A stretch of 40,235 nt of DNA. Origin: a virus. The stretch spans positions 1 through 40,235 of the IMG/VR virus record IMGVR_UViG_3300027734_000139. One strand, 5' to 3'. Under the pieces are notes generated by a model. It saw nothing but the letters and a program-made list of their open reading frames with translations. It did not search any database and had not been told where the DNA came from. The position numbers and the translations under genes were made by a program. This document shows positions 4,085 to 29,700 of this stretch, piece after piece (position 1 is the first letter of the stretch; the number at the start of each line of letters is the position of its first letter).

Positions 4085-4954
4085 ATGAGCAATGTAGCTA
4101 CATTCAAAGAAAACCTTCCCGCCCACTTGCAGAACGTCAAGCTGGACGACTTCACTAAATCCTTCTCCGCTTCGGGCGGCAGCAACAAGCGCATCACGAT
4201 GCGGGGCCGTGTGTTCCGCTTGGTGGACGGCGGCAAGGAGATTGCCAAGAACACTGACCCCAGCATGGACGTTGTGGTGGTCAACGGCACCCGTACTGTG
4301 CAGAAGACCTTCTACGCGGGCGAGTATGACCCTGACCAGACTAGCATCCCTGATTGCTGGTCCAGCGATGGCGAGCGCCCCGATGCGGATGTGGCCAACC
4401 CACAGCACGGGCGTTGCAAGGACTGCCAACAAGCCATCAAGGGTTCTGCTGGTGCGGGCCGTGCGGCATGCCGCTACTCCATGCGCCTTGCGGTGGTAAT
4501 GAAGAACAATGTCGGTGGGGATATCTACCAGTTGATTCTTCCGCAGAAGTCCCTGTTTGGCCAAGGCGACGTTGAACATATGCCGTTTTTGCAATACGCC
4601 AAGTACGTTGCCGGTTCGGGCTACAACTTGAACATGCTGGCGACGCGGCTTACGTTTGATACGGACAGCGACTTTCCCAAGCTGTTCTTTAGCAATGCGG
4701 AGTTCTTGGACAAAGAGACCTACGACATTTGCATCGAGCAAGGTGAATCCCCGATTGCCGTTAACGCTGGCAAGCTGAGTTTCTCCAAGAAAGCTGAGGC
4801 AGCGCCCGCTCTGCCCCAGCTGGTAGCACCGGCCAACTCTGCCGCCGCAGAGATTGCTGCTCCGGTCAAGCGGGCAGAGAAGCCGAAGGAAGAAAAGCCC
4901 AAGGCCAACAAAGCGGGCTTGGCTGCAATGGTCGATGACTGGGGCGACGAGTAA
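4085..4954 (+). CDS. candidate single-stranded DNA-binding protein, 289 aa
   Basis: The start follows CTGGAGAACCAT. Four cysteines at about residues 91, 111, 114 and 129 (the last pair of knuckles being HGRCKDC and AACRYS) look like a structural zinc site inside a beta-rich core of about 230 residues. A low-complexity Ala/Pro/Lys linker then leads to an acidic end, MVDDWGDE. A core plus flexible linker plus acidic tip is the plan of phage single-strand-binding proteins such as T4 gp32 (also a zinc protein) and T7 gp2.5. The position between a helicase and a primase-helicase agrees. The function is inferred from architecture and context, not from a recognised domain. A recombination protein is an alternative. 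Confidence 0.6.
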   Translation: MSNVATFKENLPAHLQNVKLDDFTKSFSASGGSNKRITMRGRVFRLVDGGKEIAKNTDPSMDVVVVNGTRTVQKTFYAGEYDPDQTSIPDCWSSDGERPDADVANPQHGRCKDCQQAIKGSAGAGRAACRYSMRLAVVMKNNVGGDIYQLILPQKSLFGQGDVEHMPFLQYAKYVAGSGYNLNMLATRLTFDTDSDFPKLFFSNAEFLDKETYDICIEQGESPIAVNAGKLSFSKKAEAAPALPQLVAPANSAAAEIAAPVKRAEKPKEEKPKANKAGLAAMVDDWGDE

Positions 4955-8371: not shown

Positions 8372-11300
8372 TTAATCCCGCAGCTTGTCGATGTACGAGT
8401 GGTTATCAAGAACCCCGCGCAGCTTCTTGTCGAGGTACAGCCCGTGGTCCATCTGCGTTGACTTTTCCAAGTGGCCCTTGATCGACTTGGTCAACGTGCC
8501 CGCTGCAATAGACACACTGGGGTGCTTAGCGTTGAACTTGTCGATGTTGTCGTAGGCTGTATCCAGCGTATCAGAATCGTTCGACATGAAGGCCAAGGCG
8601 TACAGGTTAAGCAGGTTCTGACGTTGTTTCAGAATAGCTTGCTCTTGGCCCTTGATGTTCGTGTTGTAAAACTGTATTTCTGAGAGTTCAGCAGACCGCA
8701 AGCCCAAGGACTGCGCCATCAAGTGGAACGGACTCACGTCTTCCATGAGCGGGTCACCACCCAGAGTGTTCACTCCTTCGGAGGCGTAGCGGGCAGCGAC
8801 CAACGGGTTCTTGATGAATGCCGGGGCCATCATCTCCAGAGCGCGGTCGCCATGACCCTCGTTCCAGAGTTTGCGTGCCTCGGCCACGTTGACCAGCAAG
8901 CCCGCAGTGGGCCCAAGCAAGTCCACAAGGAAGGTCTGCAACGCCTCTACTTCGTCTTGATTCTTGCGGCTATCCCGGAACCACATGTCGTCCAGCTTCA
9001 CACGGCTGGCAACATCAAGCCCTGTTAGCGCGTTGGCAGCGCCACGGGTAATCAGAGTGCCCATGTTTGCGCCGAACGTCTCCACGGCCCAGTTCACGAA
9101 CTCTAGTTCAAAGTCAAACACCTCTTCGTCGTCATCGTCTTTGAGCCCGTTCACAACGGCGTTGATGATAGATGCCACGGTGGAGAAGCCCCAAATACCA
9201 GTTCCTCCCGCCATAATAGCTGCCATGCCCATGGTTCCGACAAACCGTGCCCGCGCTTCCCGCCGCGTAGACTCGTCCATGCCCTTGAACATGTTGATGG
9301 CGTTGTGCGCAAGGAAGAACGTCATCTGCTGCGGGAACTGTTTGAACTGTAGTACCACCCGTGCAACCGGATTCTGGAAGTAGCGCGGCTTGTTTGCGGA
9401 GGAGTAGTCAAACATAGCCCGCTGGGTGACATCCTTGGCATCCGCAACGGCCTCAGCAAAGGCTAGATTCTGGTCGGCATAGCCCTTACGTTTTTCCATA
9501 GCCGCCCGGAACGAGGACATGGCCATGACTTCACGGTTGAACCGCTCAGCGTTGTGGAACAGGGCCGTCAAAGCTTCCATGGCACGGTTCTTCACCCCGC
9601 CATAGCTTTCAGTTGGTGCAGCAGCCAGACCCGACTGGTCGTACGCAGCAGTGATGTCGATAACCCCGTCGGCCACAAACCGTTCGTATGCTTGCTTGTC
9701 TATGTCGGTCATGGAGTCTGACCGGCTCAAGGTTGGAAACTGCAACCGGAAGTCCCGAACGCGTTTGCCTGTTTCTACTTCAAACCCGGTGGCTATGATT
9801 TGCCCAGCTACAGTCTTCATCTGCCCCAGTGCTTCTAGCGTAGCCTTCGTGTACGACTTGCCGGGGTTCATCCGCACGTTCTGGCCGATGAGTGTGGGCA
9901 ACCCGATGACCATACCGCCCACCACGTTGACGATTGCAGAGGCAGGTGCGGTCAAGTACCAGATGAATCCGATGTTAGACAACAGCGACGGGATAGTCCC
10001 TACGTCGGTTGGGTTGAGCATCAGCTTCAACCGCTTGTCCATCTCTGTTACATAGTCGCTGAGCTCGTTGTTCTCCCTAGACAACTCTTTGTCAAACCCA
10101 CCGGCTTCGTCTTTCCTGTCCTTAATTTGCATGCGGGCGGCTTGCACTTGGGAGAACATGTCCGGAGAGTGTTCAAAGCGAGCAAGCTGGTACGCCATGT
10201 GGAACGACGACTTTGCAAAGTTGCGCAGAGCGTCTTCTGAGTAGCCCGCCACATTGTTCCGGTGCATGAACTGAGTGCGGAAGCTGCTCTCCGGTTGGAT
10301 AGCCAGAAAGTTTTGGTAGATGGTATCTTTCAGATTCTGGGCGGGCATGCCAGCAAATGTGGTGCTGCTGACACCATCTATTGCGCTAAATACGGTACGC
10401 AGGAAGTTGGACTGTTTGGCATGCAGGTCCATCTGCTGGGCGTACTCTGAACCTTCCTTGACGGGCAAGTTGGGGTCTTGGCTAATGCGTTCAGCCATGT
10501 GGGCTTCTTTCGCGCCCGCAGTCTCAAACATGTAGTACTCACGGTCTTTTCCAGTACCAATCTGATACCAAAACCGCCCGTGGCGCATCAGTGGGAAGTA
10601 TGGCCCCCTAAACTTGGTGTTCTCAAACTCGTTACGTATCTCAAGAATAGTGGCTTCAGACACACCAAGGTTACGCATCTCAATGATGCGCTTAGCCATA
10701 ATACCTTTGTACTCAGCCTGCCGGTGTTCGTAAAAGTCTCGCACCCGCCGGTATATGTTTTTGGATGTAGGGTCAAGCACCTTCCAAGCATCGGCCACCA
10801 TTATTTCTCGGGGGTTTCTGCCGTACCGGATTTTGTCTGGGTCAAACTGAAGAATCGTAGCCTCATGCATAACTTTAGCAAGTGCCTTGGATTCTTCGGG
10901 ATTGGAAGACTGCATGCGCTCCCAGACGTTAAGGATGTCTCCGGACTCCTTCAAGATGTTGTTCTTGCGGGCAAGGAACTCCTCGGTCAACCGGATGAAG
11001 TTGTTGACCTGCGGGACACGGTTGCGCACCAAGTCCCCAATCTGGCGCAGCGTAAGCGCTCCGAGCAACGCGGGCCGACTAGCAGCCTTTGCCGAGACTA
11101 TTATTTGGCTGTATGGTTTTTGGGCTTCTTCCCAAGTACGTGATTTCAGTACCAGCTTGAGTGTGTTTGGGGTGTTCTGCATCCCCGCCGGGACAGCAGC
11201 TATGCGCCCGGCTATGGCCTTGGGCTGCCCTTTAGTTTCCGTGGGTTCTTTAGCGCCCTCTATGCCTTCCAACGAAGCCTCGCCCGGAATCAAGATGTTG

Positions 11301-14300
11301 GTGGCCCGCATAACCTCCATCATCACGTCGCTGTCTTTGCTCTTGGCGTCCATGCGGAACAACTGTGCGATGGCCCGCGAGAACGCGTCCCACAAGGAGA
11401 ACGGAGCAGCTTTGTAGCGAAGCACTCGGAGGTCCGCTTGGAACACCGGGTTAGTCATTGCCTCGGAGATGAACTCGTGCAGGTCTTGCAACCCGTAAGG
11501 AGTGGTGTCGCTATTTTGTACGGCAAGCTTGCCTCTGGAATACTCGTACAACTCTACAAGCCGGTTGTACGCATCCTTCCGAACGCCCCGCAGCTTGTCT
11601 GCGTTGTCGATCAGGTCTGACGTTACGGCGTGCAGGACTTCGTGCAGGAACGTGTGGTTGCTTATCGTTTTGTTCCGCAGCATGATGGTGTCGGATGCTG
11701 GGTCGTACTTACCTATCCAACCATATTGTTCGTTCAAGAAGTCAAATGCCTGCTTAGCAATCTCCCGCTGGGAGTCGTTGGTAAAGTTCTTCTGGAGGTT
11801 CTTAACCTCGGTCATCACCGCCTGCAAATTGTCGGACTTGAGGTTACGAACCATTACCCCTTGGCGTTCCGTCGGGATGGAGGTCTCAATCATTTTTACC
11901 AGCGTGGCTATCTGGTTCTTAAACGTCTCTTTTACATTGGGGTCGTTTGACAGCGGCAGTATTTTGTTGGGGTTGATAACTTCTATCTTGGCCGTTGGCT
12001 TTGCGGCTAACAGTCGTTCGGCCAAGACTTTGTAGTAGCCGTCCTCAGAGTCAGCCAAAGTCTCCAGCGCTTCAGTTAGGTTGCCTTTCTCTACCATCCG
12101 CAGAACCGCGGGGTGTATGGTCCCTAACGAGTGCTTGAATTTTTCAGTCGGTGTGTCTTCTTGCTCACCAGCCTCAGTTTCTTTGATACGCTCGCTAATA
12201 TTTGGCCGCTTGCTAGGGGTTTTTTCTAGCTTTTTCTTGGCTGTCACTTCGGCGGCTGCGCGTTTCTTCTCCGCAAAACCATCCAAAGCGTCGTTGTATT
12301 TGCTTATTGCGGCGTTGTACTTTTCGGTCTCAGCAACATTTAGCTTGTGGACCGCAATGAGGTCATTGAGGGTATCAACTGTGCTTTGGTCTAGGTTGTC
12401 GTTAATCCACTTTTGAAACGCCACCGCGTACTTACCACCTTCACCGTAGAAAGTGCTGTTAGCAGCCTCGTTAGTAGCAATGTCATAGGCCAAGTCATTG
12501 AGTGCATCCCCAAACGTCTCCCGTCCGGGGTTCTCCATGTAGTTCTTAGCCGCTAGCTGCTCAGCTGACGGTGCTCCACGAGCGGCAATCAGTTGCTTGA
12601 TAGCACGCCACGCAGTACGCAACTTAGTGTCTTGCACCACAAACCGTTTTTTCTCTTGATCGTCCAGACTAGGACGGCGGGGTTTGCCTTCTGAATTAAC
12701 GCCACGCTCTTTGGCCTTAATAGGGGTTGCTTCTATTTCACTCTCGTAGGGGATAACCCCAATAAACTTACCCGTTGCAGGAGCGGGCATGTTCTTCGTA
12801 GAAATTTGGACGCCGGTTCGCTCGTCCCCGGTCTGCTTGCGCATGATGGGCAGCTCATCAAGCTCCTTACCTACACGGCTGGCAAAGCCTTCCAAGCCTC
12901 TGCGGCTTGTCAGGTTGGGCAGGCCAAACCGGTTAAATATGGCCTGCTGAACAGACGGAGACTTGTTCTGCTCCAGCTGCTCTATCATGGCGTTTAGTTT
13001 GTCACGCCCGCCCACTAAGCTACCAATGTAGTCCAGTACTTCACGTAGCCCAAGGCTTTTGGTCTCGCCGGGTTTTGCAATATCGTAATTAAGTACGTCT
13101 TTACGTACAGCACCCTTTAGCGCTGTGTGCTTATCGACTTCTCCGGGTGAATCAGTAGAAGGCACAAGCGCATCGAAGAACCTGTTTATCAGCTTACCTT
13201 CGTTAGTAGCGTTGATGTGCTCTGTGCTTATTAACGGAGCTGTTTCAGTTTCCTTCTGGGACACCGGCTTTTGGCCTGTGCCTTTTGTTTCGGGTTTAGC
13301 GCCCACTTCCTCGGCACCAAAATCTTGTCGTGGGTCTTCACCAAGCAACAGGCCCATCAGAGTTTTTTCTAGGTCTGTTGATTCTTTTGTCTTACCCGTT
13401 GAGGTCTTTTGTTTTTCACCCCCAAACAAACTTTCTTGCACGGGAGCGTCGGCCATCGACTCTCTGGGTTTTCGAGGTAGTTTTGGTTTTTCTGGTTCAC
13501 CCCGAAGCCAACCAGCGTTCGTATCGGTTCTCTGGTCAGCGGGCAATGCTAGTTGCGCGTTTAGTTTTTCTAGGTCATTTTGAAGCGCAGCGCGCTGTCG
13601 ACTGTAACTATCTACTTGCTCTTGGGCAGCGGTCAATTTTTCAACCGTAACTGTAGCCCCTCTTCCAGCTACAGCGGCGGCGTTAATTTTTTGCAATTCC
13701 GCAAGTTGTTCTTGCGAAGCTTTTAACTTTGCCTCAGTTTCTTGCAACGAGTTGGTCAAAATCTTGGCGCGTTCTTCACCGCTAAGATTTGTGACATCGG
13801 TTGAGTACTTGTCTTTCTGGGCAAGTTCTTTCCGGTTGAACAAGTTGCCTTGCATTGCACGAGGCTGGCCAACACTAGGCAGCCCAGCAATAGCTTGGTC
13901 AATGGTTTCAAGTGTCCGCTTTTTAGCTTCCGCGACCAAAGCGTCTCTGTTGGCCATGGCTTGCGCGGCGTTCATGTCAGCGCTACGACCCAGACGCATA
14001 ACCTCTGCGTCGCTATGCTCGTAGTCCATGACGCGTTGCTTGCGGTTCTTTAGCTCTTGCGCAGCTTTCACGGGGTCTTGGCCCGCTAGAGCCATAGCTC
14101 CTGTGATTGCCCGGCCAATTTGTTCGTTGGTACTGAACATCTCCCCTTGCATAGCACGAGGGGCTTTTTTGTTGGATGCTAGCTTGATGGTAATTCCGTC
14201 AACTACATCAGACAATGGTTCGCCATCAATCGTATCTTTCAGATATCGTTGATAGTCAATATCCACTAACTCGCCGCGTAAACGACCCAACATGTTGTCT

Positions 14301-15676
14301 TGGACGGCGTTGCGAGAAGGCTGTCTAAGCAGGGCATTTATGTGCTCTCGCACATCGTCGTAGGCTTCTTTGGCATCCGCAGAAGCTGCCTGTACTTCCT
14401 CGTCGGTTAACGACGGAGTTGGTGGTGGCGGTGGCGGTGGCGGGGTAGTGCTAGCTAGTGCACCGGGTTGGCCAGCTTCTCCACCTGTAGTCCCCGGAGC
14501 ATTCTGTCCAGAAACATCCACTCCAGTTCGCTGAGTTCCCGCAGTTCCTGCGGCGGGGGCTCCAGTGTCGGGCTGTCCAGCCACTGTAGTGCCTGCTCTA
14601 TCTGGGGTACTGACAGGTTCTGTAACATCTGGTTCCCTTTCTACATCTCTACTGGCCCCGGTGACGTCTTTGCGCAAAAGGGCTTGGCCTTCGGGAGTGC
14701 CGCGTGCAGCGGCGGTGTCCCGCAGCTTACTATATGCGCCCATCGGTCCGCCCAACAAGAGCGCACCGCCCGCAGCTTCCAAATATTCTTTTGCCGCGTT
14801 GGGGTCAGTGAACGGGTCAAGCGCGAGGCCCGCTTGCCACCGCTCCAGCACTTGCTGGGATACTTCTTGCGGAATCTCAAACGCAATACCTTCCGCAGTG
14901 CCCCGGGCAACCGCACGAGCGTAGGCTCTGGGCTGCGTGGCCTTGGCAACGATTTCCATTGCCGCTTTTTCAGCAACAGCCTTACCCTCAAGACCCACTA
15001 ACCGGCCCAAGGGTTTGAACAGTTTGAACCCAAAAATGTCCAAGGCGGTTGAGCCCGCAGCGGCAGTCACACCTTTTAGCCGGTTGATGTCCTCATAGGG
15101 TTTACCCGCAGCTGCTTGCTCTTCCTTTTGGCGGGAGATGTTATCCGAGAGGTACGAGCCCAAGGATATGAGGCCAAAAGCCGCCGTGCCCGCAGCAGCG
15201 GCAGGAATAGCAACAGGTGCTGCCGCTACGGCTGCGGCAGTGCCTGCACCCGCAACCATCGCCGGGGCCATAGACCCGAGAGAGGAGCCCGCTACTTCTT
15301 TGAACTTGTCGACCGTTTTGCCAAGAGCTTGGGTGAAGTTGCCCTGCCTGAATGCATCACCAATCTCACCAAACTCGGTGTTCTTGTAGGCGTTGTTAGC
15401 TTCTTCTTTGTGTCTGGCCAGCTCATCTACCGCAGCCTTCTGGTCACCAAGCCCGGTGAATATTTTTGCTGTGGGTAGAGCAGTCGTCGCCCGCTCTTTG
15501 AGGGCAGAGCCAAACGACCCGAAGAACCCGCCAGATTCAGTAGGTGCTGGTGCTACTGGTGCTGCTTGCGTAGCAGATTGGTTGTGGGTGTAGTTAGCCC
15601 ACTTCCACGCCGTGTTCTCGTCTGGGGCGTCTACTTGATAGGTGGACGACCCGACTTTAACTTCGTATGTAGGCAT
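8372..15676 (-). CDS. giant polyvalent/internal virion protein with a zinc-peptidase motif, 2434 aa
   Basis: The longest and last gene of the late block. The N-terminus (MPTYEVKVGSSTYQVDAPDE) has a small beta domain. A hydrophobic Ala/Gly-rich stretch at about 131-180 may cross or insert in a membrane. A Pro/Gly/Thr-rich linker holds a run of eight prolines near 412, and coiled coils lie around 640-710. The middle has HEVLH at 1345-1349 (HExxH zinc peptidase site) with HEFISEAMTNP about 55 residues later, where E1405 could be the third zinc ligand. The C-terminal about 700 residues contain further hydrophobic helices (PASAIVNVVGGMVIG and others). Size, position and layout fit an ejected internal virion protein with several domains, as in T7 gp16-like and large polyvalent proteins. 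The Shine-Dalgarno before the ATG is weak. Confidence 0.75.
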   Translation of the reverse strand: MPTYEVKVGSSTYQVDAPDENTAWKWANYTHNQSATQAAPVAPAPTESGGFFGSFGSALKERATTALPTAKIFTGLGDQKAAVDELARHKEEANNAYKNTEFGEIGDAFRQGNFTQALGKTVDKFKEVAGSSLGSMAPAMVAGAGTAAAVAAAPVAIPAAAAGTAAFGLISLGSYLSDNISRQKEEQAAAGKPYEDINRLKGVTAAAGSTALDIFGFKLFKPLGRLVGLEGKAVAEKAAMEIVAKATQPRAYARAVARGTAEGIAFEIPQEVSQQVLERWQAGLALDPFTDPNAAKEYLEAAGGALLLGGPMGAYSKLRDTAAARGTPEGQALLRKDVTGASRDVEREPDVTEPVSTPDRAGTTVAGQPDTGAPAAGTAGTQRTGVDVSGQNAPGTTGGEAGQPGALASTTPPPPPPPPTPSLTDEEVQAASADAKEAYDDVREHINALLRQPSRNAVQDNMLGRLRGELVDIDYQRYLKDTIDGEPLSDVVDGITIKLASNKKAPRAMQGEMFSTNEQIGRAITGAMALAGQDPVKAAQELKNRKQRVMDYEHSDAEVMRLGRSADMNAAQAMANRDALVAEAKKRTLETIDQAIAGLPSVGQPRAMQGNLFNRKELAQKDKYSTDVTNLSGEERAKILTNSLQETEAKLKASQEQLAELQKINAAAVAGRGATVTVEKLTAAQEQVDSYSRQRAALQNDLEKLNAQLALPADQRTDTNAGWLRGEPEKPKLPRKPRESMADAPVQESLFGGEKQKTSTGKTKESTDLEKTLMGLLLGEDPRQDFGAEEVGAKPETKGTGQKPVSQKETETAPLISTEHINATNEGKLINRFFDALVPSTDSPGEVDKHTALKGAVRKDVLNYDIAKPGETKSLGLREVLDYIGSLVGGRDKLNAMIEQLEQNKSPSVQQAIFNRFGLPNLTSRRGLEGFASRVGKELDELPIMRKQTGDERTGVQISTKNMPAPATGKFIGVIPYESEIEATPIKAKERGVNSEGKPRRPSLDDQEKKRFVVQDTKLRTAWRAIKQLIAARGAPSAEQLAAKNYMENPGRETFGDALNDLAYDIATNEAANSTFYGEGGKYAVAFQKWINDNLDQSTVDTLNDLIAVHKLNVAETEKYNAAISKYNDALDGFAEKKRAAAEVTAKKKLEKTPSKRPNISERIKETEAGEQEDTPTEKFKHSLGTIHPAVLRMVEKGNLTEALETLADSEDGYYKVLAERLLAAKPTAKIEVINPNKILPLSNDPNVKETFKNQIATLVKMIETSIPTERQGVMVRNLKSDNLQAVMTEVKNLQKNFTNDSQREIAKQAFDFLNEQYGWIGKYDPASDTIMLRNKTISNHTFLHEVLHAVTSDLIDNADKLRGVRKDAYNRLVELYEYSRGKLAVQNSDTTPYGLQDLHEFISEAMTNPVFQADLRVLRYKAAPFSLWDAFSRAIAQLFRMDAKSKDSDVMMEVMRATNILIPGEASLEGIEGAKEPTETKGQPKAIAGRIAAVPAGMQNTPNTLKLVLKSRTWEEAQKPYSQIIVSAKAASRPALLGALTLRQIGDLVRNRVPQVNNFIRLTEEFLARKNNILKESGDILNVWERMQSSNPEESKALAKVMHEATILQFDPDKIRYGRNPREIMVADAWKVLDPTSKNIYRRVRDFYEHRQAEYKGIMAKRIIEMRNLGVSEATILEIRNEFENTKFRGPYFPLMRHGRFWYQIGTGKDREYYMFETAGAKEAHMAERISQDPNLPVKEGSEYAQQMDLHAKQSNFLRTVFSAIDGVSSTTFAGMPAQNLKDTIYQNFLAIQPESSFRTQFMHRNNVAGYSEDALRNFAKSSFHMAYQLARFEHSPDMFSQVQAARMQIKDRKDEAGGFDKELSRENNELSDYVTEMDKRLKLMLNPTDVGTIPSLLSNIGFIWYLTAPASAIVNVVGGMVIGLPTLIGQNVRMNPGKSYTKATLEALGQMKTVAGQIIATGFEVETGKRVRDFRLQFPTLSRSDSMTDIDKQAYERFVADGVIDITAAYDQSGLAAAPTESYGGVKNRAMEALTALFHNAERFNREVMAMSSFRAAMEKRKGYADQNLAFAEAVADAKDVTQRAMFDYSSANKPRYFQNPVARVVLQFKQFPQQMTFFLAHNAINMFKGMDESTRREARARFVGTMGMAAIMAGGTGIWGFSTVASIINAVVNGLKDDDDEEVFDFELEFVNWAVETFGANMGTLITRGAANALTGLDVASRVKLDDMWFRDSRKNQDEVEALQTFLVDLLGPTAGLLVNVAEARKLWNEGHGDRALEMMAPAFIKNPLVAARYASEGVNTLGGDPLMEDVSPFHLMAQSLGLRSAELSEIQFYNTNIKGQEQAILKQRQNLLNLYALAFMSNDSDTLDTAYDNIDKFNAKHPSVSIAAGTLTKSIKGHLEKSTQMDHGLYLDKKLRGVLDNHSYIDKLRD

Positions 15677-24536: not shown

Positions 24537-24875
24537 TTACACGTTCCGTTCAAAGTGCGGGCAGTCTACCAAGGAGCGGAAGTTACCGCCCCAACGGTTC
24601 TTGGGGTGCAAGGTTTCCCAGTACGCGCCAAGCGGAGCCAGAATCCCCTTGTCCCAAATGATTTTGCCATCACGGAAGAAGTTAAGGTCGGCAGCGCAAC
24701 GCTTGAGGTGGATGGAGTTCATGGTCTTGCTGCGGCCTGTCTTGAAGTAGATAGCTTGCTGCTCCGGTGTACGGGCAAGTTCCCCGCCGGTAACCATAAA
24801 ACCTTGGTCTGTGGCGTACTGCACCAGCTTGCAGAAGTCCAGCAAAAACGCTGCTTGTTCGGTACTAAGACTCAT
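24537..24875 (-). CDS. M15-family peptidoglycan endopeptidase (endolysin), 112 aa
   Basis: The frame is open to 24896, but ATG 24875 follows AAAAAAGGGGT, an appropriate Shine-Dalgarno. The protein shows GELARTPEQQ at 32-40, SIHLKRCAADLNFF with zinc ligands H56 and D63, and VDCPHFE with H107 as the third ligand and D104 nearby. This is the VanY/L-alanyl-D-glutamate peptidase arrangement of metallo-endolysins. It would cut cross-link peptides in host peptidoglycan. It is the last gene of the lysis cassette and overlaps the preceding small cysteine-containing gene by 11 bases. No signal peptide is present, so it depends on a holin for release. Confidence 0.9.
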   Translation of the reverse strand: MSLSTEQAAFLLDFCKLVQYATDQGFMVTGGELARTPEQQAIYFKTGRSKTMNSIHLKRCAADLNFFRDGKIIWDKGILAPLGAYWETLHPKNRWGGNFRSLVDCPHFERNV

Positions 24876-25065
24876 GATTACCCCTTTTTTGAACAACTAG
24901 GTCAATGCACGTTGCGTCTACCGTCGCACCCATATCAATATAGTCCTGCTTCTTTGACCGCACGGCTGTCATGCATTGCTGCCTGTCAGTGTAGTGGGTA
25001 AGCTGTTGCAGGAACTCGCAGTGTGCGTTCATGCAGATGTAAAGGACGGGAATGAAGATGCTCAT
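24865..25065 (-). CDS. small exported/cysteine-containing lysis-cassette protein, 66 aa
   Basis: ATG at 25065 overlaps the stop of the holin-like gene (ATGA), with AGAGGAACC upstream. The first 14 residues are hydrophobic (MSIFIPVLYICMNAHC), followed by a polar body with cysteines at 11, 16, 31 and 53. The short hydrophobic start and cysteine pattern suggest an exported or membrane-attached protein that forms disulfides. Its position between holin and endolysin is where spanin-like or regulator genes are found. It shows no clear lipobox, so I do not call it a spanin. Confidence 0.6.
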   Translation of the reverse strand: MSIFIPVLYICMNAHCEFLQQLTHYTDRQQCMTAVRSKKQDYIDMGATVDATCIDLVVQKRGNHES

Positions 25066-25292
25066 TTTGGTTCCTCTTCTTTCTCGCCGTGGGACAGTTT
25101 CACGCCAGCCAGCAGTCCGATAAAGCCGCCAACAATAGTCTGGAAAGCAGGGCTGATGAGCTTGAAGATTTCGCCGTTGTCCACGATTGGGTCAAACAGA
25201 CCCGCCATAAGTACCGCGACCATTCCTATGATGACAACGCACAGCGTAAAGCTGACCATTAGGGTCACGAAAAACGTCAGCTTGGCTTTCAT
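25062..25292 (-). CDS. holin-like protein with two membrane segments, 76 aa
   Basis: ATG at 25292 overlaps the upstream stop. Residues about 5-31 and 46-66 are hydrophobic (the first includes TLMVSFTLCVVIIGMVAVLM, the second TIVGGFIGLLAGVKL), and the tail is charged (SHGEKEEEPK). Two transmembrane helices with a charged C-terminus are typical of class II holins. It follows another holin-like gene, so it may be a second holin or an antiholin that sets lysis timing. Confidence 0.7.
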   Translation of the reverse strand: MKAKLTFFVTLMVSFTLCVVIIGMVAVLMAGLFDPIVDNGEIFKLISPAFQTIVGGFIGLLAGVKLSHGEKEEEPK

Positions 25293-25801
25293 TTTTTGCT
25301 TCTCATGTCTGCCAGCTTCTCAATGGTACGTCCGCCGAAGTACGCACCCATGATGAGCATGCCCCAATTCCCCAGCAGGGTTACATAGGATTCATTGGCG
25401 TTGTAGCCATACGCGCTCATCATGGCAAACACGGAGTACATAACGAAGATAGCAATCAAGCTCATGGGACGAATGTTCTTTGACAGCCAAGAGTCGGATG
25501 TCATGTCTGCCTGCCAACGGTCTGTGATGTTGTCGGCATCGGCTTGTGCAGCCTTTGCAAGCAGTTCGAGTTCAGCCATTTCCAGTTTGGCTTTCTCGAT
25601 GCCCAACTCAATCAGGCGCTCTTCATGCTCATACTGAAGCTGCCGCAACTTTTCAACGTCGGCAGGAGTGGGGCTGTCGGGTATTTTGATGCCGAGCGTG
25701 TTCTCTACAACTTCCTTGCCTTTGGCCTGAATAGCAGAGGACAGCAGCCCCAAACCGTTTTCAGCCAGTGTTCCCAGCAATGCACCGATGATTGGAATCA
25801 T
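25289..25801 (-). CDS. holin of the 3TM/GTA-holin type, 170 aa
   Basis: The N-terminus is hydrophobic (MIPIIGALLGTLAENGLGLL). A long charged helix of about residues 45-90 follows (VEKLRQLQYEHEERLIELG). Then comes the segment DRWQADMTSDSWLSKNIRP leading into two membrane helices (about 113-130 and 140-157) and the end YFGGRTIEKLADMRS. This WQADM..SWLSKNIRP..FGGRTIEK layout is what I know as the 3TM holin family also found in gene transfer agents. It would form the inner-membrane lesion that releases the M15 endolysin. The start overlaps the upstream stop as TAATG. Confidence 0.85.
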   Translation of the reverse strand: MIPIIGALLGTLAENGLGLLSSAIQAKGKEVVENTLGIKIPDSPTPADVEKLRQLQYEHEERLIELGIEKAKLEMAELELLAKAAQADADNITDRWQADMTSDSWLSKNIRPMSLIAIFVMYSVFAMMSAYGYNANESYVTLLGNWGMLIMGAYFGGRTIEKLADMRSKK

Positions 25802-26291
25802 TAGAAGCCCCTATTTGTGATAACGTGAAATGCAACACTGACCAATGGAACGATGATAGCGGAAGCACCGGTAATCCAGAGCGTGTTCATAATGATTGCC
25901 ACCTTCATTTCCTTGTCCTTCTGTTTGCGCTCCGCTTCTTCTCTTTCCAGCGTGTTGCGCTCTTTAATCAGCCTTGTCCGCTCTGCCATCATCTCCTCCC
26001 ATACCGGGGCGTTGCCGCTGTAGAAGAGTATGTCCTTCAATTCCTTTTCGTGCTCCCGAAGCGCCTTGGATGCCAGTGCAATTTGGAGTGCTTCAGAACT
26101 AATTTGTGCATTCGTCTTACCTATACTAGCAATCCGCGCTTTACTGCTTGCTAGGTGAACCGTGTCCGCTGCTTGGTAAAAACTGCTGAATTCTTTATAT
26201 AGGCTGTGGATATCCTTACCAAGAGCGACTGCTTTTTTATACCGGCTACCGCACCTTGAGCAAGGGCAAAAGCTGTAAATGGGTCAATCAC
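25801..26291 (-). CDS. coiled-coil membrane protein of the lysis cassette, probably made by -1 frameshifting, 163 aa
   Basis: Translation would begin at GTG 26291 (AGGTG a few bases upstream, at the end of the preceding gene). Zero frame reads VIDPFTAFALAQGAVAGIKK and meets A AAA AAG at 26238-26232. A -1 slip continues with AVALGKDIHSLYKEF, a helical region, RKQKDKEMKVAIIMN and one membrane helix (about TLWITGASAIIVPLVSVAF), ending at 25801. The joined frame is convincing: the AGIKK|AVALGKDI join is smooth, and coding continues far upstream of TTG 26040, the only start within the long frame. Without the slip the product is only 46 aa (stop at 26153-26151). From memory, similar coiled-coil plus C-terminal membrane proteins precede holins in other phages. 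The function is unknown, and a homopolymer sequencing error is the alternative explanation for the split frame. Confidence 0.75.
26168..26257 (-). promoter_or_regulatory. programmed -1 ribosomal frameshift signal
   Basis: On the minus strand the order is: Shine-Dalgarno-like AAGGTG (26257-26252), 13 bases, the slippery heptamer A AAA AAG (26238-26232, in correct phase with codons ATA AAA AAG), an 8-base spacer (26231-26224), then the stem CTTGGTAA (26223-26216) pairing perfectly with TTACCAAG (26179-26172). The stem extends by GCT/AGC past one bulged C, which would shorten the spacer to 5. The loop is 36 bases and contains the palindrome GGATATCC. Slippery site, internal Shine-Dalgarno and downstream stem are the three elements known from dnaX of Escherichia coli. 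Confidence 0.7.
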
Positions 26292-26292
26292 A

Positions 26293-26733
26293 CTACACCT
26301 GTGGGGTCTCGACTACGGGTTCAACGACTGGCTCTACCGGGGTCTCCACAACAGCTTCAACCACAGGCTCTACTACGGGCTCAGGGATGGGGCGTAGGTC
26401 GCCTTGCACCCACACGCCTTGCTCTTGGTTCCATGTGTAGAAATACGCATCCACAGGCATATCCACAGGCGGCTTCCACAGCCATGTGCCTGTATCCAAG
26501 ACCCAGTTGTCAAAGGGCTGCGGCGCGACAAACACATCGTTCACGCTGTCAAAGGTGTACCCAATCCCAGCGTAGTTGCCGCGCAGTGGGCGACCTTCAG
26601 GGTGCTGATTGCCGTGCGTGTTGTAGCTGGTCTGCACCCAGCCGTGGCCCAGCGCACCGGTGTCGATGAAGTCCTGCTCGGCAACAATCACCTGAGTGAC
26701 GATGCCGTTCTCTACTTTTGCAAAATGGCTCAT
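26293..26733 (-). CDS. tail-associated virion protein with EPVV-repeat tail, 146 aa
   Basis: The start follows TAAGGAGAACAC. The product reads MSHFAKVENGIVTQVIVAEQ, then WVQTSYNTHGNQHPEG, NYAGIGYTFDSVNDVF and WVLDTGTWLWKPPVDMP. This aromatic-rich beta pattern is widespread in phage tail modules, usually without an assigned function. The last 30 residues are imperfect repeats of PVVE/PVVEAVVE type, an extended acidic tail. It is probably a fibre-associated or chaperone-like protein, since it follows the large fibre gene. Confidence 0.75.
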   Translation of the reverse strand: MSHFAKVENGIVTQVIVAEQDFIDTGALGHGWVQTSYNTHGNQHPEGRPLRGNYAGIGYTFDSVNDVFVAPQPFDNWVLDTGTWLWKPPVDMPVDAYFYTWNQEQGVWVQGDLRPIPEPVVEPVVEAVVETPVEPVVEPVVETPQV

Positions 26734-26742
26734 GTGTTCTCC

Positions 26743-29700
26743 TTAACGAGCGTTACTGTACTTGAATGGGTTCTCGGCGAAGGCCATATAGATGTACGTC
26801 CCACCACTCGCATTGATGTAGACAGGGCTTGAACGAACTTTGAATCCATTAGACAAAGAATCAATCATGCGGTTTGAATCCGTTGTTTCGGTGTAATTTC
26901 CATTTGGAAACAATGTTGAATTCATTACATCGTATGTGTTTCTTGATGTATCAAACACAATCCAATCATCTGTTGAATCTGTACGCTTAAACATAACCCA
27001 TCTTGGTCTAAACCCAAGGAACACAAACGGCCCATCCGTAGAGCCATTGCCCGTGTAGCTGCCAAATGCGCTGTACCCTGCTACTGCGGCAAAGACGTAG
27101 GCGACAAATGTGTTAGTACCCCGATTAACCCTGTCGTTTGTCCCAAGTGAAAAAACGGAACTAGTTGGGGCAGTTGAATTAAATGTAGTGGCATTTCCCC
27201 CTGTTGCGGCATCAGTATTATTCAACTCCAATGTAGTAGAAGCGTTTGCAAGGCTTGCATGATATACAGCCCAGTTGTAAACGCTAGTCCTATTCTTAAA
27301 TATCATCATGCTTGGCACGACACCCAGCCCATGCCCTACAGTAGCGTTTGCGCCTGAACCCGTGTAGGTCACCACGCTGAACCCAGCCGTAGTGTTTGCG
27401 CTCACCGTGCTGGTGATAGAGCCGCTGGTGTTGGTTACGCCTGTGCCGTTGGCTTTCCATTGCCAGCCGACATATGTTTCGCCACTGCCATTTGCATTTG
27501 ATGTGCTTCCAATCGAGTATCCATTTGAATTGAAAGAAGTCAAAGTGCCAGCCACAGAACTTGCCGCCCCAGCTGTATTCGATGAAAGCAAATCCAATGC
27601 GCCACGAGTAACGTCAAACAAACCGTGGTCACGGGCAACGCTTCTGTCTTTGTACCAAACAAAGTCAGGCTGGAATGAGGTTCCATTGACAGCATTGCTG
27701 ATTGATTGGCTTGTTCCATTACCCGTATAGGTCGTAGCCGCCATGTACACCGCGCCGTTGGGTATCGTAGGCGTGGTCAGGTTGTAGGTGTTCAGCGCAA
27801 CAAAGCCGCTTGGTGCGGTGTAGGTGAATGGCTGCTGCCCGAAGTTAGCCGCCAACGTCACAGCAAACCCGCCCGAACCGCCGCCCGTGTCGCTTACTAC
27901 TGGCGTAAAAATGCCACTCAAACCAGTAAACGCCGTGCCTTGGCTGCTGTTGTTCTTGTAGAAAACTATCGTGCCAGCGTCCATGTCCAGCGCAACACCA
28001 ATCACATCTCCAACTGTGTAGCTTGCGCCGTATGCAGTAGCAGTGCCGTTGTTGTATTTGTTGCCAGCAATGCCGTTGTATATGTACGCCGTGGAATAGT
28101 TGCCGGGAAATTGCGTCATCTGAGTTGACGCCAAAATTATTCCAACATTTCCCCTAGCAGCGCCAGCGGTTTGTGTTATTTCCCAATACCATTTTCCTGT
28201 GGATACCCCAAGCGTTCCTTTTACTGCTCCGGGGTTTCCAGTGCCAGTGGTGGCAATTTGCAAGTTACCATTTGATATGGTTGGGTCGCTGTTGTAGTCC
28301 AGCGGGTTGAATGTGCAGTAGTTTGCCACTGTCGCGCTTGTCAGCGTAGGCACATCCAGCATGGAGTCGTAGGTCGTGCCAGCGGTCACGCTGATGTTGT
28401 TCGTCGTCCAGTTGTTGCCCTGCGGGCTGGTGTCGTAGCCCAGCGTGGTGGTCGATGTGTTGTCACCAAAGGTCAGGTAGAACCCGTTCGTGCCATACGA
28501 GCCGCCGTAGGTGATGGGTTGCCATACGCCGTAGCTGTTGAACGTGCCAAAGCTGGATGGGGTCAGGGCTGTGCCGTCAACAAAGTTGACCTCTGCCATG
28601 TAGCCATCAAAATTTTCAGTTGATGGGTAATCGCATCCAAGATAGTGCGTAATGGTGCTGTTAAATTGTGTATCGTAATTTTGTGATGGATAGTTTGTAC
28701 TTGAAAATGACGTTACCTGTACGCCATTGATATACAGCTTTACCCTATCAGCGGCTGTTGCTTGTGTGGTATCGATTGCGACAACAACGTGATACCAAGC
28801 AGATGGGTCACGATACAGCGCGGTAGTGTAAGTACCACCAGAAGTTCCAGATGTAAATGAAATTTGAATTTGATTGGAACTATCCCAAATCAAACCTCCC
28901 CAAGGGGCCGACGTTTTTGCAGTAAAAAAGTATTGCGCCGCGCCAGTAGCAAGACTTCCGCGCTTAACCCAACCACTCCATGTCCATGTTTTACGATTGC
29001 CAGCAACTGTAGGAGTGCGAGTTAGATAGGCATTGTTGCTTGCACGGAACCGCAGTGAACGGCTTGCGTACTTGATGGGCGTGAGGTAGCCGCTGGAGGT
29101 GAATGTGTGGATGACATTGCCGCCAGAGATGGTCACCGTGCCACCAGCCATTTGCTGGGTAGAGCCGGAGTAAGAGATGATGACGATGCCTGAGCCGCCT
29201 GCACCGCCAGCAGTTCCACCAGCGCCCGAACCACCACCTCCCCCGCCACCCGTATTTGCCGTAGCCGCAGTGCCAGCAGCAGCAGCGCCGCCTGCACCTC
29301 CACCCCCAGCACCACCTGTGCCTCCAGTGCCGCCACCAATACCGCCACCACCACCGCCAGCGTAGGTTACTGACGCGCCAGAGATGGATGAAGCCGTACC
29401 CGCGCCGCCTGCGCCGCCAACAGACCCAGCGCCGTTTGAACCAGCAGCACCCGCCCCGCCACCGCCACCAGAGCCGTAACTTGCCGCTGCGCTTGGCCCA
29501 GTGCCACCAGCGTTACCTTGTCCAGATGTGCCAGCACCACCAGCAAAAGTTCCTGCGCTTGTCCCCGCGCCACCGCCGCCCGAACCACCAGCAGAGCCAA
29601 CGGCGTTGCCATAACTACCGCCACCGCCGCCAACCGCAGCAGTAGCAACTGCGCTAAAGCTGGAATTGTTTCCGTTTACGTTTAAGGCGGTTGCTTGAGC

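Follow-up and report, generated by a model that had tools for sequence, protein, structure and literature searches.

A conserved -1 frameshift signal in a lysis-region gene of an environmental phage lineage

The split gene and its neighbours

The window analysed here is the whole of IMG/VR record IMGVR_UViG_3300027734_000139, a stretch of 40,235 bases, and the gene of interest lies on its minus strand, divided between two frames. The zero frame (26151-26291) opens with GTG at 26291, closes with TAG at 26153-26151 and encodes 46 residues, its first 20 codons being common to the full product. The slip heptamer A_AAA_AAG (26238-26232) sits in zero-frame phase inside ATA AAA AAG C (26240-26231). 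Beginning with the G of the heptamer, the -1 frame part (26232-25801, minus strand) runs for 143 codons to TAA at 25803-25801 with no earlier stop and carries the marks of selection described below; joined, the two frames give a product of 163 residues. Every element of the original prediction was found in its place: the GTG start, the in-phase heptamer, the 46-residue zero frame, the open -1 frame, a downstream stem and an upstream AAGGTG. The heptamer string alone is not rare, occurring 11 times on the two strands of the window, and no copy is in phase in any of the 23 other window ORFs checked. Chance occurrence of the slip site can be excluded because it is conserved in relatives. Elsewhere on the minus strand, a single ORF of 2434 codons for a very large phage protein occupies 8372-15676.

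The split gene has a tail-fibre gene and a 146-aa gene of unknown function (26293-26733, minus strand; phrog_7759) upstream, and a holin-like gene and an endolysin candidate downstream, so the setting is as first claimed. The holin-like gene (25289-25801, minus strand; 170 aa) matches the holin family phrog_3427 at E 1.1e-12, with a Pfam match to GTA_holin_3TM below the cut-off. The endolysin candidate is of the M15 type (24537-24896, minus strand) and matches PF13539 above the cut-off.

The ATG of the holin-like gene overlaps the stop of the -1 frame as TAATG (25801-25803). Across 92 distinct alleles, including two 'moved' alleles described below and leaving out 5 loci that were too short, the commonest arrangement is a 1-nt overlap between this stop and the next start (78 alleles), followed by a 4-nt overlap (8 alleles), the remainder having a gap of 1 nt (3 alleles) or 14 nt (3 alleles). 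At least two types of next gene occur, mostly 170 or 164-165 aa long; the 170-aa type matches phrog_3427, and the 164-aa next gene of one locus, L088, finds nothing better than families without an assigned function or a weak tape-measure match. The overlap was considered as a feature special to the split lineage, an idea rejected on finding TAATG in 7 of 17 single-frame sisters as well. Because the -1 frame ends on the start of the holin-like gene, frameshifting might set the flow of ribosomes to that gene, and translational coupling to the overlapping next gene is plausible from this arrangement.

The encoded protein and its family

The fused product matches phrog_32327, a family of unknown function (E 4.6e-12; residues 1-146 against positions 1-139 of a 152-position profile), as do 26 of the 28 members of the set A3. 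The relatives in this family examined outside the split lineage have a single frame, whereas the window gene is split. A Pfam search with the fused product returned no match at E 0.001 and no relation to DNA polymerase, and a single-frame sister, L136, gave three weak Pfam matches, all below the cut-off and none to a polymerase. No holin family was matched by the product of the split gene in PHROGs or Pfam.

A structural model of a sister protein, built from a 28-sequence alignment (mean pLDDT 78.7, pTM 0.57), has four helices, the last of them long and closing with the family's hydrophobic stretch, which is also seen in the window product. On the strength of this model, the full product is predicted to be helical and to have a hydrophobic C-terminus. 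When the sister model was used for fold searches, no PDB match reached E 0.001 or better, and the BFVD matches at that level were all unnamed or uncharacterised. At six loci (L170, L178-L180, L187 and L190), a weak second match to the N-terminal part of the family lies about 250-300 nt upstream of the main gene, perhaps a short upstream paralogue.

Conservation of the slip site

Protein scans, each taken to its best 80 loci, yielded 150 split loci that reduce to 81 distinct alleles, and ATAAAAAAG is present in 81 of 81 among the matches listed. In the scan with the -1 part as query (best 80 of 162 relatives), the join was read by eye and found to be ATA AAA AAG in 79 of 80, the exception, L068, being incomplete. 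A DNA pattern in which the Ile codon and the first Lys codon were left free and AAG was fixed found at least 119 stretches; with the window included, ATAAAAAAG was present in 120 of 120 pattern loci among the matches listed, and a continuous-frame version of the same peptide was seen in two contigs. As counts among the matches listed, these may have let rarer variants escape. Sorting by a sequence motif covered 281 loci, contig repeats included and loci outside the motif such as L018 left out, and gave 256 split, 18 continuous and 7 other, the last comprising 4 loci incomplete upstream and 3 of the moved sublineage.

Identical and truncated sequences were dropped for statistics, which left 90 split alleles, each unique and full-length; a subset of 67 share less than 95% identity with one another. 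A comparison of homologues had been proposed as a check of the original prediction, and in these 90 alleles the slip site and its phase are invariant while the surrounding codons vary. Within 497 nt, no stretch of 6 nt or more is invariant apart from ATAAAAAAGC. Among 92 codons that have an invariant amino acid and available synonyms, parsimony counts an average of 12.0 codon changes. Just four codons show no change at all, three of them making up the site (ATA, AAA and AAG) and the fourth being a Glu codon far from it. Because the G of AAG must also begin an Ala codon in the -1 frame, it is the third bases of ATA and AAA that carry the argument. In single-frame sisters, the corresponding Ile codon is ATC or ATT in 20 of the 20 loci listed. 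The in-phase heptamer is, then, conserved beyond what coding demands.

The downstream stem

Structures that stimulate frameshifting usually sit a few nucleotides past the slip site. In the window, a 16-pair stem can be formed between a 5' arm at 26229-26214 and a 3' arm at 26181-26164 (minus strand), the latter with two bulged bases. A spacer of 8 nt separates the heptamer from CTTGGTAA, which pairs with TTACCAAG around a loop of 36 nt, and the strong pairs of the whole stem begin 5 nt past the heptamer. The 70 nt after the site fold more stably than their shuffles (mean z -1.55 over 67 alleles), with z between -0.1 and +0.5 at four other places in the gene. Over 65 distinct windows, 92.2% of the cells of the 16-pair stem are paired, compared with 38-52% in controls with slid partners; the stem is weak in 5 of 90 alleles, which keep 10-13 of the 16 pairs.

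The covariation of the stem rests essentially on one pair, 26224/26170, formed by the third bases of two Ala codons and therefore synonymous. This pair is C-G in 47 cases, U-A in 40 and C-C in 3, and it ranks first by mutual information among 9730 third-position pairs. All 4 changes inferred at 26224 fall on branches with a compensating change at 26170, and one further change at 26170 breaks the pair. A structure that lies close to the site and covaries is present, mainly through this pair. Care must be taken in reading the stem as a whole, as 2 of five measures are not exceeded by the real stem in a shuffle control: the number of pairs changed on both sides is reached by 154 of 500 shuffles and the number of further pair types by all 500, neither being unusual, and the number of cells changed on both sides is reached by 10 of 500. 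Coding accounts for some of the stem, because 19 single-frame sisters form 8-15 of its pairs, with L196 forming 15. No Rfam match was found in a search of 25700-26800.

An upstream Shine-Dalgarno-like element is an optional feature of bacterial frameshift sites of the A_AAA_AAG class. The candidate in the window, AAGGTG (26257-26252, minus strand), lies 13 nt before the heptamer and is not conserved; a motif of the AAGG, AGGG, GGAG or AGGA kind occurs upstream in 62 of 90 alleles and likewise in 17 of 19 single-frame sisters. The inclusion of this element in the signal, as first suggested, is not supported.

Selection in each frame and the short product

Counting amino acid changes among codon changes shows which frame is constrained on either side of the site. 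Upstream, the zero frame has 44 amino acid changes in 245 codon changes, and the other two frames, with 232 in 241 and 237 in 238, are unconstrained. Downstream, it is the -1 frame that is constrained, at 292 in 1631, and the other two are not (1463 in 1651 and 1543 in 1622). Purifying selection on the -1 frame thus starts at the slip site. Synonymous change is reduced in the overlap, the stretch that holds the stem, at 7.1 versus 13.2 per codon (p=5e-5).

The same approach can be applied to the short product of ribosomes that stay in frame. In the original prediction, the gene had two functional products, one short and one long, whose ratio could tune the timing of lysis. Where the frames overlap, the amino acid is altered in 159 of 179 codon changes in the zero-frame tail and in 11 of 172 in the -1 frame, and the zero-frame product ends at two places, after 21 residues in 25 of the 90 alleles and after 45-46 in the other 65. 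As the tail is unconstrained and comes in two lengths, the short product is best seen as a by-product. The conserved N-terminus of about 20 residues is common to both products and could be taken as a mark of a shared role, but single-frame relatives keep this N-terminus too, so its conservation is explained by the full product. A two-product switch was not borne out by these data and is considered unlikely.

Origin of the split state

For the same 163 residues, the gene takes up 489 bases in single-frame sisters and 488 in split loci. The eight closest single-frame loci, among the matches listed, are identical at 94-111 of the 163 residues (58-68%). In a family-wide scan, the best 80 of 397 loci are single-frame as far as they reach, the query being a single-frame protein, which favours such loci. 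An INPHARED search with the -1 part alone gave no match at E 0.01. The fused protein, searched at E 10, brought up 54 records, from which 30 weak Pseudomonas phage matches (E about 2) were excluded; 14 of the remaining 24 were taken, and their regions are all single-frame, with one, L110, a weak and longer relative. A scan of genome contigs found no relative. The split state is derived, since the single-frame relatives are one base longer, and it apparently arose by a one-base deletion.

In a codon tree of 92 tips, the split alleles and the two moved alleles form one group with moderate support (UFBoot 79), and the moved pair, L272 (on the contig of L088) and L273, from two contigs, is nested inside it (UFBoot 98). 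At the site, this pair reads ATC AAA AAG GCC; the frame is continuous and the slip site is lost. In L088 (2929-3417), a TTG start gives one ORF of 162 aa, with which the old ATG is not in phase. L088, L272 and L273 carry an additional base close to the former start, and their TTG overlaps the previous stop. For the moved pair, a TTG-started continuous ORF of 162 aa seems a simpler account than a +1 shift at CCT TTT C. These alleles would fit a site that is kept only where it is needed, on the example of one sublineage, L272/L273. The endolysin type also varies between these phages: L088 has a glycosyl hydrolase 108 (4138-4662) where the window has the M15-type candidate, and the split or moved gene stays in place.

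Single-frame homologues lacking the site had been named beforehand as the case that would speak against a programmed frameshift. Such homologues exist, in the sister and outer lineages and in the one nested sublineage, and a distribution of this kind fits a derived frameshift and does not refute it.

Mechanism and alternative explanations

The best reading of these observations is that the gene is expressed by programmed -1 ribosomal frameshifting, which we hold to be very probable, and to this extent the original prediction stands: through a conserved -1 frameshift signal, two frames yield one protein of 163 residues that has a hydrophobic helix at its C-terminus. In the mechanism that we propose, one base was probably lost from the A run of ...GGN ATH AAA AAR GCN..., splitting the gene in this lineage. 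Two tRNA-Lys on AAA_AAG would slip to AAA_AAA, stimulated by the downstream stem, and the ribosome would go on to complete the helical protein, including the hydrophobic anchor at its C-terminus. Without a slip, ribosomes would stop after 21 or 45-46 residues and release the by-product. From the signals, we infer that ribosomes rather than RNA polymerase slip, as well as any efficiency of the slip and any regulation through it, including coupling to the holin-like gene.

The alternative in which RNA polymerase slips would have an A added at the A6 run, after which ordinary translation makes the protein. A runs can serve both mechanisms in dnaX and in transposases, and dnaX genes with shorter A runs may also use transcriptional slippage, as argued by the authors in the available text of PMC3711429. 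However, the run here has just six As, and the cases given in that text are at A runs longer than 7 (PMC3711429). All split alleles kept have a shift of -1, which by the same account favours ribosomal shifting (PMC3711429), and an RNA stem that covaries at frameshift distance would be unexpected. Given six As and a covarying stem, transcriptional slippage is a minor rival and improbable.

A further possibility is that there are two separate genes, or that translation is initiated internally in the -1 frame. The window does have a TTG in this frame at 26040, and a possible start close to the site or upstream of it is seen in 8 of 90 alleles (a TTG just 3' of it in 5, a start upstream in 3). In the other 82 of the 90 unique alleles, there is no ATG, GTG or TTG from the upstream stop of the -1 frame to +60, yet constraint on this frame begins at the slip site, and internal initiation is rejected on this count. 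Two genes are at odds with the lack of constraint on either other frame upstream of the site and with relatives that encode one protein across the join, so that this explanation as a whole is very improbable. A pseudogene or assembly error, for which a one-base deletion relative to the sisters would be the simplest origin, is rejected as contradicted by conservation and has next to no probability, because many contigs show the same split state, with both parts under purifying selection and the site invariant.

Implications

If ribosomal frameshifting operates here, an environmental phage lineage apparently needs a frameshift for one of its lysis-region proteins to be made in the first place, a protein that its relatives make without any. 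The family offers a natural experiment in which a programmed frameshift has been gained, tuned (through the covarying stem) and lost. Such genes are also easily split or shortened in annotation.

A more speculative idea is that of a lysis valve, in which the frameshift controls both how much of the membrane-anchored protein is made and how many ribosomes reach the holin-like gene. We regard this as possible but doubtful. Were it true, lysis would respond to the state of translation late in infection, for instance to the supply of lysyl-tRNA, and selection would have retained a signal that first arose when a single base was deleted.

Comparison with known systems

The site was originally described as dnaX-like, a description that is apt for some features and misleading for others. 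In E. coli dnaX (tau/gamma), as in the phage gene, A_AAA_AAG is followed by a downstream stem-loop, but the dnaX shift makes a shorter product (from the available text of PMC5009743) and the phage shift a longer one. The Shine-Dalgarno stimulator that matters in dnaX has no conserved counterpart in the phage gene. The likeness is therefore one of heptamer and stem, and extends neither to the Shine-Dalgarno element nor to the outcome; the phage product also shows no Pfam match to DNA polymerase III tau/gamma, the homology that marks dnaX.

In tailed phages, -1 frameshifting is known from lambda gpG/gpGT, and AAAAAAG is listed for several phage tail assembly chaperones, in the available text of PMC3483164. 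In the lambda case, a complete protein gains an extension, whereas the zero frame of the phage gene ends after 21-46 residues; the gpG/gpGT genes lie next to the tape-measure gene, and the phage gene lies between the tail-fibre region and a holin-like gene. An identity as a tail assembly chaperone of the G/GT type was rejected on the short zero frame and these neighbours. More broadly, the dsDNA-phage frameshifts in the literature examined, as far as its available text goes, are used to lengthen tail chaperones or structural proteins, with examples in tail genes in PMC3483164, PMC3556154, PMC6316719, PMC10868258 and PMC7266877.

The original prediction knew of no frameshift of this type in a holin-linked gene. 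A programmed frameshift in a holin-linked dsDNA-phage gene was likewise not found in the literature searched, which was largely open-access and leaves absence unproven; the nearest case is the lysis gene of MS2, an ssRNA phage, for which a later study, judging by its title, reportedly credits translation termination. The proposal there was that frameshifting in the coat gene provides a route to the lysis gene: the shifted ribosome terminates early and restarts at the overlapping lysis gene, in contrast to the fused product here, and the available text of PMC10885494, where this proposal is described, mentions neither a fused protein nor a conserved slip heptamer.

A final comparison can be made with 'corrective' frameshifting of indels, reported mainly from mitochondria and also from endosymbionts and herpesvirus TK, in which a one-base indel is compensated and the product made without a shift is useless (PMC5009743, available text), apparently the situation here as well. 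Unlike those cases, the phage gene has a slip site of the classic bacterial, stimulated type, whose stem covaries and which has been maintained throughout a diverse lineage of phages. The mechanism is a known one, and its placement in a lysis-region gene appears to be new.
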